Shown here: in pieces, positions 6,441 through 54,605 of the stretch
Position numbering within the stretch: the first letter of the stretch is position 1
Layout of the letters: every line of letters begins with the position of its first letter
Assembly: GCA_036023115.1 (NCBI GenBank)
Contig: JAYKKT010000046.1
Span: 6,811,001 to 6,875,000 of the forward strand
Direction of reading: 5' to 3'
Source: Brasenia schreberi
Taxonomy: Eukaryota; Streptophyta; Magnoliopsida; Nymphaeales; Cabombaceae
DNA length: 64,000 bases
Notes under the pieces: model-generated
Database searches by the model: none
Told to the model about the DNA's origin: nothing
What the model saw: the letters and a program-made list of their open reading frames with translations, nothing else
Position numbers and translations under genes: made by a program

Positions 6441-6924
6441 CATGCGTGTGTCGTTGTGTTAAGGTTCGCCCTCCAATTGTAAAAATAAATAAATAAGAAA
6501 AAGCCGTGAAACATAAATCAACCGAGACGAAAGCAAAAAGAGAAAGATAAGAAGGAAGAAAACGAAATTTAACATGGTTTCAGATTTAACATAAATCCTT
6601 TCTTGTGCTACGGGTAAGAGAAGAAGGAACTTATTAATGATTACCATTATCCCAAGGCAATTTAAAGAAATTTTTTCATGTCATATTTTCTCATGGCAAC
6701 TTAATATCATGAATTTACATATATTTATAACCCAATAAAAGAGACAACTGGGTTTCGTAAATCATGCATAATTCTTAACAAGATAGAGAAACTAATAAAA
6801 ATTTTAGACAAATAAAAACTAAAGAAAACATGATGAATTCTTGACACTTCCAAAGTCCATGTACATCAAAAATCAAAATAAAACAGTTGCGTTTTTTATT
6901 CATATTCAAAGCAGGAATACAAAT

Positions 6925-7800
6925 AATTATCACTTAAATATGAAAACTCGCACCAAAAATCTGTGATTTATGTAATTCTGCCATTTCATGCAGAAGGAGA
7001 AAATCTGCAGGTGGTCCTGTGCAACCCGTAGTAATACTGTAGGCAGCCATCGCAGAGCTTGTGGTGTCCGGATGCCATGAGCTGGGTGAGCGCGTGTTGG
7101 TACCACCAGCATACTTCTGGCATTTGGAAGGGTTTTCCAGGTAACGTAGTCGTTAGCCTCTGGCTGGTACTTGCAGAAAGGGGTTGGGTTCCTCAACGGC
7201 TTCTTCTTGAGGGGCCTGTAGCCAAAGATAAAATCAAAATTAATCATTTAAAACATAAAACACTTTTGATACTATCAATTGTTTCATGGAGACTGAGGGA
7301 AAAAAAGGGAGGAATGTGTTTTGCCTGTACCTTTCAGGTGTCTTCGTCCAAGTGTTGTGGGTTCCATGGCGTGGAAAAAGAAGGTTCTCTCTGTAAGAAA
7401 GTGAGGAGTCTTGGGTGCACGAAGCTCTGTCAACAGGACCTCTCTTTTTCGTGGAAGACGAGTTGGGCGGATTGGTGCCTTCAGTTATGGAGCTCGTATT
7501 GATTGTTGCCATTATTGTTGATGATGAAGCTGTTGAGGTTGAATACGACGACTGGGGAATGAAACAATTTGATGTCAAACTTGAACTTCTCGAACGTTTT
7601 ATGCACCCAACACACCCTATTCAAGTATTAATTCTCTTAATGCAACTATGTTAACCAGTTCTTAAGTTTGGGAAAAGTTTCTTTGTTTAACTCATAGGTT
7701 AGTTTCCTCTTTTTGAAGAACACTGTCCTCCATAAGAGAAAATGGGAACACTTGTTGCGAAATGCGGTTCTAGGGCAGCTCCCTTGAGGGCAAGGTAAAA
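6925..7800 (-). pseudogene. Relic A of an unrecognised Cys-rich gene family
   Basis: On the minus strand, a Ser/Thr-rich segment (7578 down to about 7500) is followed by a segment reading EVLLTEL...HAME, then GYRPLKKKP (about 7215) and finally LMASGHHKLCDGCLQYYYG (about 7085-7025). The last motif has a C-x2-C followed by Q-Y-Y-Y. The pieces lie in different frames or behind possible introns, so I cannot assemble an intact protein. It is inverted relative to 9225-10,400. I do not recognise the family. The C-x2-C pattern suggests metal binding, but this is only a guess. Confidence 0.45.
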
Positions 7801-10400: not shown

Positions 10401-10659
10401 ATATGTGTCCTCCTTTAAACTGTCTTTATAAGGGATTACGCTTGCATGACCGGTTCAAAGCCCGAATAAAAGAGGAGCATTGCATTAACTTTATTGGATT
10501 TTTGATATACTTAAGGAACGGTACCAAAAGAATTAAAAAGGCAGGTTCAATCCTTTTTTTTCCTATGAGCATACTTATCCGAACTCTTTACTAGTGGAGG
10601 TGTGTTATTTATAAAGTATTAAAAGGAAACAATGTAAATTATCTAATTTTATAACGTGA

Positions 10660-35215: not shown

Positions 35216-35221
35216 TGACGA

Positions 35222-36066
35222 GGTCGTGATTAACTTGACAGCAGTGCATCCTCCATCCACAATAAGATTATGACCACTGATGTGGCGGACTCATCCGATG
35301 CTAGACACAACGAAGCATCTGCAATATGCCTGGCCTTCAACACGATGCCCTTCAAGTTAGATTTGGCGCTGGCCCTGGCTTCTACTTCTTCCGGGCTCAT
35401 GCCAAGAGCGGCACATAATAAGGGAGTGGCAATTCCAGAGGGAGAGACGCAGTTGACCCTGATTCCATGTTTCCCTAGATCACTTGCCGCAGCCCTTACC
35501 AGACCCACCACACCATGCTTTGAAGCAGTATAACAGACCGCACCAAGCCCACCTTGAGATGCCGCTATGCTAGCTGTGCAGATGATCGAGCCGCGCGTGT
35601 TCTTTGACACCATTGCTCTGGATGCATACTTGATCATGGCAGCACAGCCGTGTAAATTCACCTCCATGACGCGATCGAGCACATCTAAGTCGAGATCTAA
35701 GATGCTTCTGAACTCGCCGCAGATCCCAGCATTGCTGAACAGGAGGTCCAATTTGCCATACCTCTGTATGACATACTGTATGGCTTCCATTACTTGATTA
35801 TCATCTGTGACATCACAATGTTTATAGGCGCACTTCTCGTGGCCTATGGAGGCAGCAACTTAGATCCCCAACTCATCCTGTATGACAACAAGGACAACTA
35901 TGGCACCATTGTCTGCGAACAACCAAACAGCAACCTCACCGTTGCCGCTAGCTCCACCGCTTACTACCACCACCTTTCCGTCCAACCTCCACCAAATAAT
36001 CAAGAAGATAACTAACACTTGGGCAATCCGAACCATGCATTCTTTCAAGGACCAGTACTCTCTCAT
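35222..36066 (-). pseudogene. Short-chain dehydrogenase/reductase (SDR) pseudogene
   Basis: It is about 90% similar to the SDR gene at 47,934-48,794, with matching flanks on the 5' side up to about 36,123. Lesions: a TAA stop replaces the Gln codon after DELG (about 35,868-35,870); the cofactor loop SGGASGIG became SGGASGNG; and a base is lost near 35,285, so the C-terminus after DESA runs out of frame and the NVDGGC end is lost. The internal part from MEAIQY to ASDES is still open (35,790 to about 35,290) with SNAG, S and YxxxK motifs present. Not functional as a whole. Confidence 0.92.
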
Positions 36067-36177
36067 CACAAAGTAAATATAGAAGAAGAAGAAGAAGGAC
36101 GAGATAGCCAGTCGACTATCACTTGTCCAACGAGCATTAATTCTATGCGTAACATCTCCATCAATTCTTCCACCACT

Positions 36178-38730
36178 AAACCTAGGTATTTAAAACTTTT
36201 CTTTTGGGGATGCAATGTGTGCCAATTTTAATTTAGGTAACCAAATGATCAAACTTATATTCCATATATTTTGTCTTTGTTCTACTAAGTCGGAAGCGTT
36301 TGCTTTCTAATGTTTCTCGCCATAGTTCCAATTTTCTATTAACTTTTTTCTTAGACTCCTCCACTAATACAATGTCATCTGCAAATACCATACACCAAGG
36401 TACTTCATCTTGAATATGTTTTATTAACTCATCGATCACCATTATAAATAAGTATGGACTTAAAGTTGATCCTTGATGTAACCCAATATTAACTTCAAAA
36501 AAGTCTATCGTTCATTTATGAGTCCTCACACATGTTTTTGCACCATCATACATGTCTCTTATAAGGTTAATATATGTCAATGGGATACCTCTTTTTTCCA
36601 AAGTTCTCCAAAGAACCTCCCTCAGTACCCTATCATAAGCTTTTTATAGATCAATAAATATCATGTGAAGGTCTTTTTTTTTCTCTAAAATGTTCCATAA
36701 GACATATCAAAAGGTGAATCACTTCAATACTAGATCTGCCTGGCATGAATCCAAATTGGTTCTTTATTGTACTTGATACTTGTCTTAACCTACGTTCGAT
36801 AATTCTTTCCCATAATTTCATAGTATGACTCATTAACTTGATATCTCGATAATTCACACAATTTTTAATGTCTCCCTTGTTCTTATATATGGATATAAGT
36901 GTACTTACTCTCCATTCCTCGGGTATCTTTTGGTTTTTTCATATTTCATTAAATAGTCTTGTGAGCCAAGTGATTCCTATTTCACCTAGTATTTTCCAAA
37001 ACTTCTATAGGAATATTATCTGGTCCTACCGATTTACCACCCTTCATATGTTTAAGAACCTCTTTGACTTCATTCTTTTGAATACGTCGGTAGAAATTGT
37101 AGTTTATATACTTTTCTTATTTGGTTAATTCTCCTAAGCTAATACTAACATCTTTATTTTCATTAAAAAGATTATAAAAATAGTTTTTCCATCTATTTCT
37201 TATATCATCATTTGCCACTAGAATTTTTTCATCCTCGTCTTTGATCCATCTAACATAATTAAGATCTCTACTTTTCTTATCTCTAGCCCTAGATATCCTA
37301 AAAATATCTCTTTCACCCTCTTTTGAGTTGAGTTTTTTATATAAGTCCTCCCAAATTTTAGCTTTTGCTTCACTCACAGCTTTTTTCGCTTCCTTCTTTA
37401 CTTTCTTATAAGCCTCTAAAGTTTCACTAGTTTTTTTAGCATAATATAATTTGTAACATGCCCTTTTTGCCTTGATTTTATTTTGTACTACTTCACTCCA
37501 CCACCAAGCTTCTTCTTGTGCTGGTACACCTCCCTTAGATTCACCTAACACATCTTTCGCCACTTTCCTAATATGTATAGCCATATTGTTCCACATATCA
37601 CAGGGTGTACCAACATAATTTCCAACATCTCCTTGAAGGATTTTCTGTTTAAATATATCTTCTTTCTCACTTTTGAGGTTCCACTATTTAGTCCGAATAG
37701 CTCGATGCACTCTTTTCTTCTTTGTTCATTTTTTTTATTTATAAATCCATAACTAAAAGTCGATGTTGGGTGGTTAAGCTTTCTCCTGGAATTACCTTGC
37801 AATCTTTACAACACGCTCTATCTTTTTTTGTACAAATAAAGTAATCAATTTGTGTTTGTGATAAGCCACTCTTATAAGTAATTAAATGTTCATCTCATTT
37901 TTTGAAGATTGTATTGACTATAAAGAGATTAAATGCTATAGCAAAATTTAAAATCTCCCTACCTTTCTCATTTATATCCCCAAAACCAAAGTTTTCATGA
38001 ATCCCTTGATATCCTAATGCCTCTTTACCAACATGTCCATTTAAGTCTCCTCCTAAACAAGTCATCTCCCTTTGTGGAATCTTTTGAATCACCTTATCTA
38101 ACTCTTCCCAAAAAGTTGTCTTTATACTATCTTCTAGTCCTACTTGGGGTGCGTAAGCACAAACTATATTCAAAACCTCTGCTCCTAACACTAATTTCAA
38201 TGTCATGATTTGGTCACCATATCGTTGTATGTCTGCTACACTATCCTTTAAATCTTTATTTATGATAATACCAACTCTCTTTTGAGCCTTTTCTTTACCT
38301 AAGTAACATAATTTAAAACATGTATCCTCTATCTCCTTTGCTTTTTCTCCAACTCATTTAAAACATGTACCATAATCATATTATCTAACACCTCCATTAG
38401 GTTACTGGATAATGTTTCCATATTCCAAGAACCAATACGAATATTATTATCTAAGACTAGCTTCCTTACCTCCCGCATCCGTCCAGAATCAAAATGCGGA
38501 GACCCTCTCTGAAAAATTTTTACTACATTCGGGCGGCAATGTAGCGGGACTAACTTCTTTACCCACACCCGTCCATGATGTGGGAACCCTCTCTTCAATT
38601 GATTCACTATATTCGAGCGAAAATGTAGTGGCCCTTGCTTACTTATTACTACGTTCGGGCTCTGTAGCACGTCGCTAGGCGGGGACACTCCAAAGCAATA
38701 CTCATAATTTTTGTAATCCATGTTATAAAA
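36178..38730 (-). mobile_element. LINE (non-LTR retrotransposon, RTE-like), decayed
   Basis: On the minus strand, from high to low coordinates: an endonuclease start (IRIGSWNMETL, about 38,460), an endonuclease core with GGDLNGHVG and a NTIFKK end (38,206-37,895), a linker with RNRWKNYFYNLF (37,596-37,117), reverse transcriptase pieces with QFGFMPGRSS (36,857-36,651) and a FADD box (36,388-36,377). Frames change between pieces, so it is dead. The APE-RT order and the wording of these motifs fit RTE-clade plant LINEs. The 3' end is cut off near 36,178, close to the SDR pseudogene edge (36,123). A second copy of the family is at 50,170-51,990. It is a plant genomic element, not a virus. Confidence 0.9.
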
Positions 38731-38840
38731 ATCCTACGAAGGTTTACGCTGGTTGTCAGAAGCCTAACACAACCCTTCTCCTTTATTCGGGCTTGGGACC
38801 GGCAATGCAAGGGTGATCTCTTACATGGGCGGAGTTAAAG
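38731..38840 (-). mobile_element. Probable 5' leader of the LINE, between 5S-derived sequence and endonuclease
   Basis: On the minus strand this contains ggtcccaagcccgaataaag and gttgtgttaggcttctgaca, a leader type I associate with plant LINEs of this kind. It connects the 5S-derived block to the element without an obvious boundary. Confidence 0.5.
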
Positions 38841-38941
38841 GAGTACAACACGAGGACTTCCCAGGAGGTTACACATCCCAGTACTACTCTCGCCCAAGTA
38901 CACTTAACTTCGGAGTTCTGATGAGATTCAGTGCTTTAAGT
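38841..38941 (-). repeat. 5S rRNA-derived sequence (about 100 of 120 nt)
   Basis: Read on the minus strand, this matches plant 5S rRNA from about position 19 to the 3' end: the conserved blocks catcagaactccgaagttaa, gggcgagagtagtac and cctcctgggaagtcctcgtg are intact. About ten substitutions are scattered through it, including at the start of the A-box region (ctgaatctc for ccggatccc). The internal Pol III promoter region is therefore partly degraded. The 5' end of 5S is missing and an AT microsatellite follows at 38,952-38,979. It is directly 5' of the LINE in the same orientation. Confidence 0.9.
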
Positions 38942-38947
38942 GCGTAA

Positions 38948-38982
<35 letters not shown>

Positions 38983-41450
38983 AGATGACAAAGATACCTA
39001 TCTATAGATTGATCTTGTATAGCCAAAACATTAGAAGTATCCAATGTAAGACGTCAATTGCATAGATTCTGGATCGCAGATGTGTGTCGGTATCTCTGCG
39101 TCATTGTTCGAATTGATGAATCAGCCCAATGTGCTAAAAAGCAAATGAGTATTAAAAGTTTACAAAGAAAACAAAAAGAAAGTGAAATCAACGATATCCA
39201 AGGGCAGTTGATTCAGGCCCAAATCAGTCCAATTTGGGTTCAGCAATTTGGCTAACCCCTCTCTCCCCCATCCGAAGCAAGTGCATAAAAGCAAGAAGTC
39301 CTGTATAGAACCGAAGCCCCAGCGTTTCGATTGACGGATTTATGTTCACACATCTGTAACACAGTTTTTCCGACGGAAAAGGGAGAACATCGGTACTGTG
39401 ACTAAACGAAGCCACGGGTCTCCGGTATAAGGTTCAACTCGAAAGCGCCTCGAAGTTGAAGGTCATTAGTTCGATACCGGGGCAGCATTCTAGCAGGGGT
39501 TCCATTAACCGAACCCCACCTTGCCTATCAAAACTTTTGAGAGTTCTCTTATTTAAGGCTCGTTTGGTTCATGAATGAGTTTCATTTGGAAGTTCGACTT
39601 TTGAAAACCCAATTCAAACCCTAGCCGTCAGGCACCTCAAGCAAATTTGAGAAGTAATTCACTTCCAACACGTCAAATCAAAATAACCCTTTAAACACTT
39701 CCCAAGAAGTGTAGTTGAGATTCGTACCGTGAGACCATGAATCTTTTTGATAGCATCAAAACTTTTGAGAGTTCTCTTATTTAAGGCTCGTTTGGTTCAT
39801 GAATGAGTTCCATTTGGAAGTTCGACTTTTGAAAACCCGATTCAAACCCTAGCCGTTAGGCACCTCAAGCAAATTTGAGAAGTAGATTCACTTCCAACAC
39901 GTCAAATCAAAATAACCATTTAAACACCTCCCAAGAAGTGTAGTAGAGATTCGTACCGTGAGACCATGAATCTTTTTTATAGATTCGGATCCACAGGTAA
40001 ACCAAACATGCCCCAACAGTTCAGGCATTCAATTTAAAGCAAAGAACAAGTATGCGGCTTTTTGAGAAGGTTGAAGCACAAAACCAGAAGCATCAAACAC
40101 GGGTTGTGGTAGGGCAGGTTCCTAGCTCAGCTCGTTTGTCACTTGTTCGTGGAAATGGTTTGTCAAACCAATGAGCTGAATAAGAACATGGTATCTTAAG
40201 CTCATTTATGCTCACAAAATCTTGTTAAGCGATTAAACATTTTACCTAAACTGTTGCTTTCCAAACTAATCCAAACGTATTGGTATTTCAGGTTAATGGA
40301 GGCTCATTCTATAACATTTTCACAACCACAGCTCGGGTCGTAAAAAGATGGGTACTCGTTCACAAACATGTGTTAACATAAGGCTGTGGTAAGCCTCACA
40401 ATACACCAAGTCTAATTCATGATCCACGGGACATCTGGGTGCACTGTGGAGTCTCAATATCATGGGTGCTGATGACCAATTTGGCCCGCATTGTTTTTTA
40501 AATGCAATATACTTGAAGGTAAAGGATACACGAATCCGTATGGTCATGAGTGACTTCATATAATAGCATAAAGCCTTTGAAGCTTTAATTAGTTGGCTTG
40601 ATCGATGACTTGGAGCAAGCTCTTGACGGAGCGTATACGTTCAGTTCATGATTTTAGCTTTGAAGGAATATATAACCAAGTATCTCTACTACTCATCATG
40701 TCATTTGAACGACGGAAATATTTAAGTGGTTTCATGCATAGATGAGAGAGAGAAACCCACGAGAAAGCGTATACGCTTCACCATTGGAAATTCGGAATCT
40801 TATAAGAAAACCAACGAATAACGAAATCTTATCACGTCGGAAACAAAATATCAATATTCACAGGTTAACTAATTTCCAAATACAGTGCAACCTAAATTGA
40901 ATTGTCTGATTTTCCTGACACGTTTCTGACATCGACGCATATTTATTAATGATGATCATCATTCCTTTCTCTGCTCTACATTTTTATCACTTTAGGATAC
41001 ATTCGTGATATCTACATTTTGATCTCTTTGGTATACATTCCTTATCAGGCATCTCGTTTCCAGTTAGACCAGACACGGACCTTCATGCCTGGCATAGGAT
41101 AAGTTAAAAGGACCCAAGTAGGAAGGTCATGCATTCAGCCGCTCAACTTGTGATGGTAGTAAAGGATTTCCACAAGTTCCATATAAGGGAAATCATTAAT
41201 AAGCTAAATATCCTGTATTTATAAAGTATCCAAGTTGGCGATGACATGGCCGAGACTTGACGGCAGTACCAACAAAGAAGTATAACAAAGATTTCCTACT
41301 AAAATACACAAATCTCGTCATTCTATTTCGCTTCTTTCATGCCTCTTATTGATGGATAAAGTTTACATAAATACATTCTATTCATGGTATAATCATATGG
41401 ATAAAGTTTACATGAGTTATTTCTATTCATGGTGCTCTTACCCCAAAACA
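38942..41450. other. Intergenic with repeats
   Basis: An AT array (38,952-38,979), a SINE-like block with a B-box-like motif (ttagttcgataccgg, about 39,467-39,481), and a tandem duplication at 39,527-39,982. No gene is supported in the rest. Confidence 0.45.
39527..39982 (+). repeat. Two tandem copies of a 228-bp unit, possible foldback/MITE
   Basis: The unit beginning atcaaaacttttgagag at 39,527 repeats at 39,755 with about 95% identity and one small indel. Within it, ggctcgtttggttc (39,557) and the flanking aaaccaaacatgcccc (39,999-40,014) look like imperfect terminal inverted repeats, so a hAT- or PIF-like MITE may have expanded by internal tandem duplication. Confidence 0.85.
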
Positions 41451-47933: not shown

Positions 47934-48794
47934 TCATTTTTTGTACATAGCGAGTTCATGATTAACAGCAGTGCATCCTCCATCCACGTTGAGGTTTTCA
48001 CCGCTGATGAAGGCCGACTCATCTGAGGCCAAAAACAACGCAGCCTCTGCAATATGGCTGGTCTTCAACACGATGCCCTTCAAGTTAGACATTCCACTAA
48101 GATGCGCTTCTACTTCTTCCGGGCTCATGCCAAGAGCGGCACATAATAAGGGAGTGGCAATTCCAGAGGGAGAGATGCAGTTGACCCTGATTCCATGTTT
48201 CCCTAGATCACCTGCCGCAGCCCTTACCAGACCCACCACACCATGCTTTGAAGCAGTATAACAGACCGCACCAAGCCCACCTTGAGATGCCGCTATGCTA
48301 GCTGTGCAGATGATCGAGCCGCGCGTGTTCTTTGACACCATTGCTCTGGATGCATACTTGATCATGGCAGCACAGCCGCGTAAATTCACCCCCATGACGC
48401 GATCGAGCTCATCTAAGTCGAGATCTAAGATGCTTCTGAATTCATCGCAGATCCCAGCATTGCTGAACAGGACGTCCAATTTTCCATACCTCTGTATGAC
48501 ATACTCTATGGCTTCCATTACTTGATTCTCATCTGTGACATCACAATGTTTATAGGCGCACTTCTCGTGGCCTACGGAGGCAGCAACTTGGTTCCCCAAC
48601 TCGTCCTGTATGTCAACAAGGACAACTATGGCACCATTGTCAGCGAACAACCTAACAGCAGCCTCACCGATGCCGCTAGCTCCGCCGCTTATTACCACCA
48701 CCTTTCCGTCCAACCTCCACCAAATAATCAAGAAGACAATTAACAGTTGGACAAGCAGAACCAAGCATTCTTTCAAGGACCAGTACTCTTTCAT
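47934..48794 (-). CDS. Short-chain dehydrogenase/reductase (SDR110C/ABA2-like), single exon, hydrophobic N-terminus
   Basis: Single open exon of 286 residues starting at ATG 48,794 (the preceding in-frame GTG is not a start). It has the classical SDR signature: cofactor loop GGASGIG (residues 37-43), D61 in LVDIQDELG, which points to NAD rather than NADP, SNAG 111-114, N137, catalytic S166, Y179 and K183 in YTASK, and SPSGIATPL. The C-terminus NVDGGCTAV is typical of the SDR110C group (ABA2, secoisolariciresinol dehydrogenase and momilactone synthase-like enzymes). It would oxidise a secondary alcohol; the substrate cannot be told. Residues 10-26 (CLVLLVQLLIVFLIIWW) form a hydrophobic helix not seen in usual cytosolic members, so a membrane anchor is likely. 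A broken duplicate lies at 35,222-36,066. Confidence 0.9.
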   Translation of the reverse strand: MKEYWSLKECLVLLVQLLIVFLIIWWRLDGKVVVISGGASGIGEAAVRLFADNGAIVVLVDIQDELGNQVAASVGHEKCAYKHCDVTDENQVMEAIEYVIQRYGKLDVLFSNAGICDEFRSILDLDLDELDRVMGVNLRGCAAMIKYASRAMVSKNTRGSIICTASIAASQGGLGAVCYTASKHGVVGLVRAAAGDLGKHGIRVNCISPSGIATPLLCAALGMSPEEVEAHLSGMSNLKGIVLKTSHIAEAALFLASDESAFISGENLNVDGGCTAVNHELAMYKK

Positions 48795-48859
48795 CACAAA
48801 GTAAATAAAGAAGAAGAAGAAGAAGGACGAGATAGCCAGTGGACTATCAGTCTATATGC

Positions 48860-50169: not shown

Positions 50170-51990
50170 TTGTATATAGAGCGAAGTTACAAATTGTATT
50201 ATACTAAGAAGAAGACTAGTAAAACTTGGGAGGCTAGTAAGAAAGCAAAGAAAGACATGAAAAAAGTCCATTAGTAAAGCAAAATCAAAATTTGGGAGGA
50301 TTTATATAAAAACGTAAATCAAAAGAAGGTGAAAGAGACATTTTTAGAATATTAAGGTTAGAGGTAAGAAAACAAAGAATCTTATTTTTCTTAAATGAAT
50401 CAAAGATGAGGGTGAGAAAATTCTAGTGGCAAATGATGATATCAAAAATATATGAAAAATTATTTCTATAAGCTTTTTAATAAAAATAGAGATATTAGTA
50501 TTAGCTTAAGAGAGTTAGTCAAATCATAAAAGTATATAAACCGTAATTTCTATTGACATATTCAAAGGAATGAAGTGAAGAGGCTCTTAAATATATTAAG
50601 GTTGATAATACTTTAGGATTAGACAATATTCATACAAAAGCATGAAAAATCATAAGAGAGATGTAACTCACTTGGTTCACATATACTCATATATAAGAAC
50701 AAGAGAGACATTTACAATTGTGTGAATTATTGAGGTATTAAGTTAATGAGTCATACTATAAAATTATTGGAAAAATTATTAAACATAGGTTAAGACAAGT
50801 ATCAAGTAAACAGAGAAACAATTCGGACTCATGTCCAATATATCTACTATTGAAGTGAATCACCTATCAAAACGTCTTATGAAACATTTTAGAGTAAAAT
50901 AGAAGAACTTTCACGTGATATTTATTGATTTAGAAAAGGCTTACAATAGGGTGTCAAGAGATACTTTGGACAACCTTGAAAAAGAGATGTATCGCATTGA
51001 CATACATAAATCTTATAAGAGACATGTAAAATGGTGCAAAAACTTGTGTGAGGACTTATAAAAGAATGACAAACTCCTCAGAAGTTAATATTGAATTACA
51101 TCATGGATCAACTTTAAGTCTATATTTATTTATATCGGTCTTTGATGATAGTTAACAAAACATATTTAAGATGAAGTACCTTGGTATATGTTATTTGCAG
51201 ATGACATTGTGTTAGTGGATGAGTATAAGAAAAAATTAATAGAAAATTAGAACCATAAATAGAAACATTAGAAAGTAAAGGCTTCTGACTTAGTAAACAA
51301 ATAATGAATATATAGAATGTAAGTAAGTTTGATCATTTTGATACTTTAGAGGATAGAAATTAATATTGGCACACATTTCACCCCTTACAAGGAAAGTTTT
51401 AAATACTTAGGGTCAATTTTTCAAAGTGATGAAAAAATTAATAGAGATGTTACACAAAACTAATATCAGTTAGTTAAAATAGAGAGGGACATCAAGTATT
51501 TTATGTGTTTAGTAGATATCATTAAAGGTAAAAGGTAAATATTATAGAGCAGTAATTAGATCTCCTATGTTTTATGGTTCTGAGCGTTGGGCAATTAATC
51601 ATCATATGCAAAAGATGTTCGTAGCAGAAATGAAGATATTGAGATAGATGAGTGGTCACATGAGAAAAGACCATATACATAATGAAGTTATTAGAAACTA
51701 ATTGGGAGTAGCACCAATAAAGGATAAAATGAAGGAAAATCGTTTAAGATGGTTCAGACATGTAAAAAGACGACCAAATTATACTTCCATAAGAAGATAT
51801 GAAAAACTAGATTGTGAAAATGTTAAAAGAGTAAGAGGACGACAACAAAAGTGTTGAAAAGCAATTATAAATAATGATCTAGTTTATATTGAGTTAACTG
51901 CTAGCATGACACATGATAGGGCTATGTGAAAATAAAAAAATCTATATAGCCCACCAATCTAGTATAGTAAAAGGCTTAGTTATTTGTTGT
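50170..51990 (+). mobile_element. LINE relic (second copy, 5'-truncated, heavily decayed)
   Basis: Plus-strand copy of the family at 36,178-38,730. It starts in the linker (LYYTKK near 50,195; KIWEDLYKN near 50,295), continues through RT pieces with LLFADDIVLVDE (about 51,185-51,220) and ends with the typical 3' region gacacatgatagggctatgtg (about 51,906), followed by an AT array. Stops occur every few dozen codons. The 5' half, including the endonuclease, is missing, as usual for 5'-truncated LINEs. Confidence 0.85.
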
Positions 51991-54219: not shown

Positions 54220-54317
54220 CTAAATCCCTGCAAAATAAGAGAGTAACAGTAAAAAAAAAAATAGGCAGAGAACAAAATTCAAGGGAGAAGCAACGGCAGT
54301 CGACAGAGGCACAGCAG

Positions 54318-54605
54318 GCTGGCAAGGCCGCACAGGTAAAACCCAGGGCGGCAAGCCGACAAGGCCACAGAGGCAACGCCTAGGCGGCAGGCCGGCAAAG
54401 CCAGAGGCAACGCCTAATCGGCAGGTAGGCAAGGCCAAAGAGGCAATGCCTAGGTGGCAGGCTAACAAAGCCAGAGGCAACGCCTAGGCAGCATGTCGGC
54501 AAGGCCACAGAGGTAACGCCAAGGCGGCAGGCCGGCAAAGCCATAGAAGCAACGCCTAGGACAACAGGCCGACAAAAATAGAGCGGCAGGCCAAACGGGC
54601 TGAAA
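54318..54605. repeat. GC-rich minisatellite inside the copia element
   Basis: About seven to eight imperfect units of 33-37 bp, each carrying caaggcc or caaagcc, then gaggcaacgcc, then ggcaggcc. It stands in the leader/gag position. Its open frames on the minus strand (54,146-54,740) reflect repeat composition only. Confidence 0.85.

Follow-up and report, generated by a model that had tools for sequence, protein, structure and literature searches.

A composite element on the minus strand

The window analyzed here is a 64,000-nt stretch of the Brasenia schreberi genome, and its minus strand carries, one after the other, a 5S rRNA-derived head, a putative twister ribozyme, and a decayed LINE. 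A cmscan search of the window identified a 5S_rRNA match (RF00001) at 38958-38840 (minus strand; 53.3 bits, gathering threshold 38, E = 2.6e-08), and alignment to the 5S head of the family placed the 5S homology proper, nt 17-119, at 38943-38840, with 95 of 103 positions identical. The head is 5'-truncated and has an intact 3' end. This match and this identity establish that a 5S-derived stretch does lie directly upstream of the LINE, as claimed in an earlier note made from the letters alone. The flank 5' of the fragment (38944-38980) is mostly a (TA)n run and, by sequence comparison, is not common to other copies. The earlier note had seen no spacer between the two parts, which holds except for three T (38839-38837) that intervene between the 5S end and A38836; such joints differ among copies (see below).

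The interval in which that note placed the joint, 38460-38941, holds the 5S, the ribozyme, and the initial part of the ORF. The ribozyme, a feature absent from the note, sits between 5S and LINE and was found with a permissive Rfam scan as a type-P1 twister (RF03160) at 38841-38769 on the minus strand (49.2 bits, E = 3.1e-9), overlapping the final two letters of the 5S match. It fits the covariance model with a conserved core, though its score is below the curated cut-off of 67.2. The conserved UAA of the twister lies at 38837-38835, so that the predicted cut falls at U38837^A38836, three T past the 5S end; U-A is the step at which twisters cleave (PMC6154101). Inspection of the Rfam alignment revealed that the letters of the degenerate P1 hardly pair, and P1 is described as dispensable for twister cleavage (PMC6154101).

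The LINE proper occupies 36127-38836 (minus strand), as delimited by alignment to family copies, with a decayed EN-RT frame and its 3' part missing. We take it to be of RTE type on account of its architecture (EN and RT, short 3' repeat tail). Its first ORF fragment (38329-38721, minus strand, 130 aa in the ORF list) has no Pfam match, and a second fragment in the endonuclease region (37895-38206, minus strand) matches Exo_endo_phos_2 with an E value of 0.0055, which is below the cut-off. L012, a near-majority copy of the family, has RVT_1 and Exo_endo_phos domains spread over two overlapping frames, with the endonuclease at 22.7 bits, just under the cut-off of 24.5. The fragments in the window and the domains in L012 bear out the same orientation of LINE and 5S. 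The alignment with most of the 39 family loci described below stops at 36127, where the window LINE ends, and those copies go on for about 500 nt before they reach a (TTG)n tail; the missing 3' end adjoins the edge of a duplicated segment (35219-36121 and 47951-48849, 92% identical) with an ORF that may encode a short-chain dehydrogenase. By eye, two imperfect repeats (GPLHFR..VKKLV and PLHCRP..VRKLV) can be discerned at 38500-38680 within the first LINE coding stretch, accompanied by hairpin-like inverted repeats. A protein search returned two relatives. The window itself contains, at 50186-51456 on the plus strand, a second LINE copy that is about 80% identical over two stretches and has no recognisable 5' end.

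With window positions 38700-38960 as the query against the 1.055-Gb genome, 41 matches were listed (the best 40 of 4356 candidates were scored): the window itself, 39 further loci (L009-L047), and a second piece from one locus. The 39 loci are 86-92% identical to the query over most of its 5S-twister-leader stretch, and most of them align along the whole window LINE, reach about 3.4 kb, and end in (TTG)n. SINE3, a short non-coding element with a 5S head and a LINE tail, was considered and discarded, given that most copies have this length and include LINE coding sequence. In viral contigs, neither the LINE leader, the 5S-leader joint, nor the twister had a match, and a protein-based scan likewise found none.

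A common LINE boundary and its variable joints with 5S

An unselected set of copies was collected with a query comprising the twister and leader only (38640-38836), for which the best 40 of 4516 candidates were scored. It contains 39 copies other than the window, all of them best-scoring, so that older copies are under-sampled. Thirty-eight of the 39 start with AACTCC and one with CACTCC, the query beginning at the first A of the LINE and the letters from CTCC onward serving as an anchor that is conserved by construction; the flanks are unrelated. Information content is 0.19 bits just before the boundary and rises to 1.83 and 2.0 bits over the two A, and the intact LINE end in the family reads AACTCCGCCC. 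Since the unselected copies start at the predicted cleavage site (38836-38837 in the window) and have unrelated flanks, the element begins exactly where the product of the predicted ribozyme cut would begin. The RF03160 match was present in all 20 of the non-5S copies scanned (E = 0.0037 or better; the scan took in 20 of the 39 fetched copies, as stretches trimmed on the 3' side). Predicted self-cleavage of the family twister may therefore set the 5' end of the LINE RNA in the plant.

None of the 39 unselected copies carries 5S, as against at least 47 copies found by asking for it, and 5S-headed copies are thus a minority. At the curated threshold, no other small RNA was found near the 39, except for one tRNA, which lies ~85 nt upstream of the element in the same direction and past an AT repeat (L068).

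Other junctions with the breakpoint of the window, which the earlier note had proposed to look for, occur at other loci with no change in the LINE position, so that the window junction is not unique. An exact pattern (the 5S end, then the LINE start within 22 letters) occurs at no fewer than 31 places and its reversed control at none; such counts are lower bounds, and the pattern requires the 5S 3' end and covers sense 5S only. Among these 31 places, 22 were already included in the 39 loci, and seven of the nine others have at least 15 nt of 5S. In the remaining two (L088 and L091), the match to 5S is only 10 nt long, and they are not part of the 5S-headed count. Collectively, at least 47 5S-headed copies (39 loci, the window, and seven of the nine extra places) join at the same LINE site, and these 47 have 33 distinct junction strings.

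Such variability is greater at the joint than around it. Across the 40 copies that were aligned, the joint takes 28 strings of 9 lengths, in comparison with a mean of 8.5 and a maximum of 18 strings, and at most 5 lengths, in 496 neighbouring eight-column windows; 63 windows of 5S show no more than 14 strings and 2 lengths. Nine of ten nearby A/T runs in the LINE hold one length in 36-40 of the 40 copies, and the tenth, which overlaps the joint itself, does so in 35. The 3' end of 5S is intact throughout, reaching nt 117-119 of 119 in all 40 copies, and its start is at nt 1 in 9 copies and at nt 2-61 in the remainder. The T run that follows the 5S end is 0-5 letters long, most commonly 3 (15 of 47), and probably derives from the 5S transcript; the insertions at the joint are A-rich or mixed and of variable length. 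One trailer, TTTTTCCTTTT, is common to L018 and L095 despite their different 5S truncations and flanks, which suggests that it was templated by 5S.

Several copies contain more than one piece of 5S. A second piece directly abuts the first in L013, L025, and L035, L012 has another stretch somewhat farther upstream, and L031 has a short one. In addition, the 5S heads of L089, L090, L092, and L094 have internal deletions or a rearranged double joint. The joint of L089 (C77:7611820-7612080) is duplicated around an inverted twister scrap (CTTACATGG), as if templates had been switched back and forth. Judged from their sequences, extra pieces, deletions, and double joints look like signs of a jumping reverse transcriptase, with later mutation being possible for the deletions.

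Target-site duplications (TSDs) were sought by script in the 34 of 39 loci that have a usable 3' tail, a set that excludes the window copy, whose 3' end is lost. TSDs with a score of at least 12 enclose the 5S in 13 of the 34, some overlapping the first 5S letters; three more have a weak TSD (score 10), and the script found none in 18. In the control, consisting of eight mismatched partners per copy, the highest score was 12 in one case and otherwise 10 or less, and two of the 13 clear TSDs score exactly this highest control value. A TSD of ~20 letters in L035 was missed by the script and seen by eye, and the extra 5S pieces lie inside the TSD in L035 and, by eye, in L013. Among the nine copies with complete 5S, L014 alone has a clear TSD and L046 a weak one, L010 being outside the tested set. 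A TSD separating 5S from LINE, the arrangement which the earlier note had named as an argument against a chimera, was not seen in any of the 13 copies with clear TSDs. Instead, TSDs in this family enclose both parts, as they do in chimeric insertions.

Origin of the 5S heads

Distance and joint comparisons were made on 27 near-complete copies (12 gapped or truncated loci of the 39 were left out, as was the window). In none of the 27 does the nearest relative by LINE body share the joint; L012 and L018, for example, differ at 0.78% divergence. Different joints are likewise found in the tree pairs L012/L018, L011/L030, L026/L029, L009/L017, L015/L027, and L034/L047, all with support above 0.84, and the sisters L010 and L013, at a weak support of 0.57, have one joint in common. 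The same joint occurs in 5 of 351 pairs, whose body distances of 0.020-0.065 span the overall mean of 0.039. The family thereby displays the independent joints of chimeras, and 5S was apparently joined afresh in most or all copies. With CpG and CHG sites masked, the ratio of pairwise to summed divergence is 0.979 for 5S (nearly star-like), against a leader value of 0.811 and a body value of 0.93; without masking, the values are 0.916, 0.865, and 0.92, so that the test is weak alone, the unmasked 5S being no more star-like than the body. The correlation between 5S and LINE-body distances (Spearman 0.67) was not counted as evidence because copy age confounds it and inheritance would also produce it. 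By eye, a change from CTCC to CTCT in 5S looks commoner in older copies.

Starting from the observed ribozyme match, common 5' boundary, variable joints, intact 5S 3' ends, partial TSDs, and double 5S pieces, we propose template jumping, in which the LINE reverse transcriptase, on reaching the ribozyme-set 5' terminus of its RNA template, moves over to the 3' end of 5S rRNA, and we assign this reading a rough probability of 0.78. Self-cleavage of the twister at U^AACUCCGCC would set the 5' end of the LINE RNA, and target-primed reverse transcription would copy the cleaved RNA up to this end. The usual outcome would be direct joining to the target; sometimes, a few letters, mostly A, would be added and the enzyme would then jump onto the 3' end of a 5S rRNA with a short U tail, copy it to or towards nt 1, and complete the insertion. 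The 5S would accordingly be a host RNA that is newly captured, not an inherited part of the element. A single capture event, with 5S cut at nt 17, TTT at the joint, and then the LINE, is the simplest account of the window copy. Template switching was among the options listed in the earlier note, and it is well supported by the recurrent LINE site, the 33 strings in 47 copies, and the TSDs in 13 of 34.

The same orientation and the end-to-end joint would fit equally well if an RNA ligase had ligated 5S to the 5'-OH of the ribozyme-cleaved LINE RNA before reverse transcription, which would then have copied a chimeric template. Ligation is one of the two mechanisms given for U6/L1 chimeras (PMC13174262). 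However, the ligation of intact ends does not alone account for A-rich or mixed insertions of variable length, nor for the joints in L035 and L013 that connect an internal position of one 5S with the 3' end of a second, and we regard it as unlikely; the jump probably took place at reverse transcription. A different possibility, raised in the earlier note, is that the LINE recruited a 5S-type promoter, such that 5S would be a heritable internal Pol III promoter of a 5S-headed subfamily amplified through it. While the 5S-twister-LINE order common to many copies, the 9 of 40 heads that begin at nt 1 (the expected Pol III start), and the 5 of 351 pairs that share a joint would agree with such a subfamily, 5S is absent from all 39 unselected copies, nearest relatives differ in their joints (0 of 27 shared), the masked 5S is nearly star-like in contrast to leader and body (a contrast that is weak when unmasked), and the ribozyme would sever the 5S. 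The majority sequence of the body also has 17 runs of 4-6 T, and T runs of this length should hinder Pol III. We therefore disfavour this subfamily as very improbable, and a role of 5S as promoter for the LINE, while conceivable, is unsupported.

Least credible of all is that the LINE inserted beside a pre-existing 5S gene, 5S pseudogene, or Cassandra LTR. That 5S adjoins the LINE, and that Cassandra LTRs carry 5S, is what this would predict, but the 5S lies within the TSDs of 13 among 34 copies, upstream sequences are unlike among the 39 copies, and one LINE breakpoint recurs in at least 47. The Cassandra-type TRIM proposed in the earlier note is rejected, since 39 copies have no common sequence upstream of 5S and the LINE ribozyme follows directly downstream. 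To return to template jumping, it could also be imagined as part of a renewable-promoter cycle, in which the twister strips upstream sequence and the reverse transcriptase specifically re-caps some copies with host 5S. We think this improbable; if it were true, a promoterless insertion would regain a Pol III promoter, fresh from the host each time.

Known chimeras and further features of the window

Mammalian U6/L1, 5S/L1, and other small-RNA/LINE-1 chimeras are described as single insertions with the small RNA upstream and TSDs around the pair, and with joints that arise repeatedly and independently and, as a rule, are not propagated (PMC13174262). The Brasenia family resembles them in all these points. 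In mammals, however, the LINE-1 is often 5'-truncated and the 5S typically antisense and truncated (PMC13174262), whereas the Brasenia LINE begins at a ribozyme-defined 5' terminus and is joined to sense 5S with an intact 3' end, the searches having covered sense 5S only. In Magnaporthe, double template jumps have produced tripartite LINE chimeras (PMC2104539), which have in common with the present family that the enzyme jumps serially onto abundant cellular RNAs, that direct repeats flank the insertion, and that the jump occurs at a preferred template position; they involve another RNA partner and another LINE, and a ribozyme is not mentioned in the abstract of that report.

Truncated twisters conserved at the 5' ends of RTE retrotransposons have been announced as "in preparation" (PMC7761336), which agrees with the present element in the twister at an RTE-type 5' end and the proposed processing of the RNA 5' end; the capture of 5S and the junctions are not touched upon in that statement. 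SINEs have arisen from chimeras of RTE elements with tRNA or 5S (Kojima 2018, as cited in PMC13174262), and so recombination between RTE and 5S is shared with those elements, which that citation describes as SINEs; in Brasenia, long LINE copies with EN-RT bear the 5S. Cassandra TRIMs, LTR elements with 5S-derived sequence, PBS, and PPT (PMC10853983), are a further case of 5S-derived sequence inside a plant retroelement, unlike which the Brasenia 5S-LINE has no LTR borders and no common upstream sequence in 39 copies. In the literature searched, which did not extend to subscription papers and preprints, we found no description of a plant RTE with 5S attached to its twister end. LINE-small-RNA chimeras are known, and what appears to be new is that, in a plant RTE, the two parts meet end to end at a ribozyme site.

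These joints offer a natural record of how reverse transcription ends in a plant LINE, seemingly at a ribozyme-made RNA terminus, with apparent addition of extra nucleotides and end-to-end template jumping by the enzyme. They also suggest one way in which retroelements with a 5S head may have originated, SINE3 among them and perhaps Cassandra. For annotation, we note that 5S matches in plant genomes may be LINE 5' ends and that the twisters of this LINE family score below the Rfam curated threshold.

Elsewhere in the window, a twister-like stretch of ~70 nt lies at 10406-10480 on the plus strand and is 77% like the LINE ribozyme over 73 nt, a twister not being called there by Rfam. It was considered as another 5S joint, and this was discarded when comparison with a paralogue showed an ordinary flank upstream. 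Because this flank is common to a paralogous repeat (the reverse complement of about 6600-7000), the stretch is read as a twister-only insert or an extremely shortened LINE. Positions 39527-39982 hold a tandem duplication of about 228 nt (96% identical), and 54314-54576 a short tandem array whose units measure about 70 nt. Finally, several diverged copies of one gene-like sequence are distributed over 233-34195 (at about 240, 6000, 19600, 27700, and 33800) and resemble a tandem gene family.
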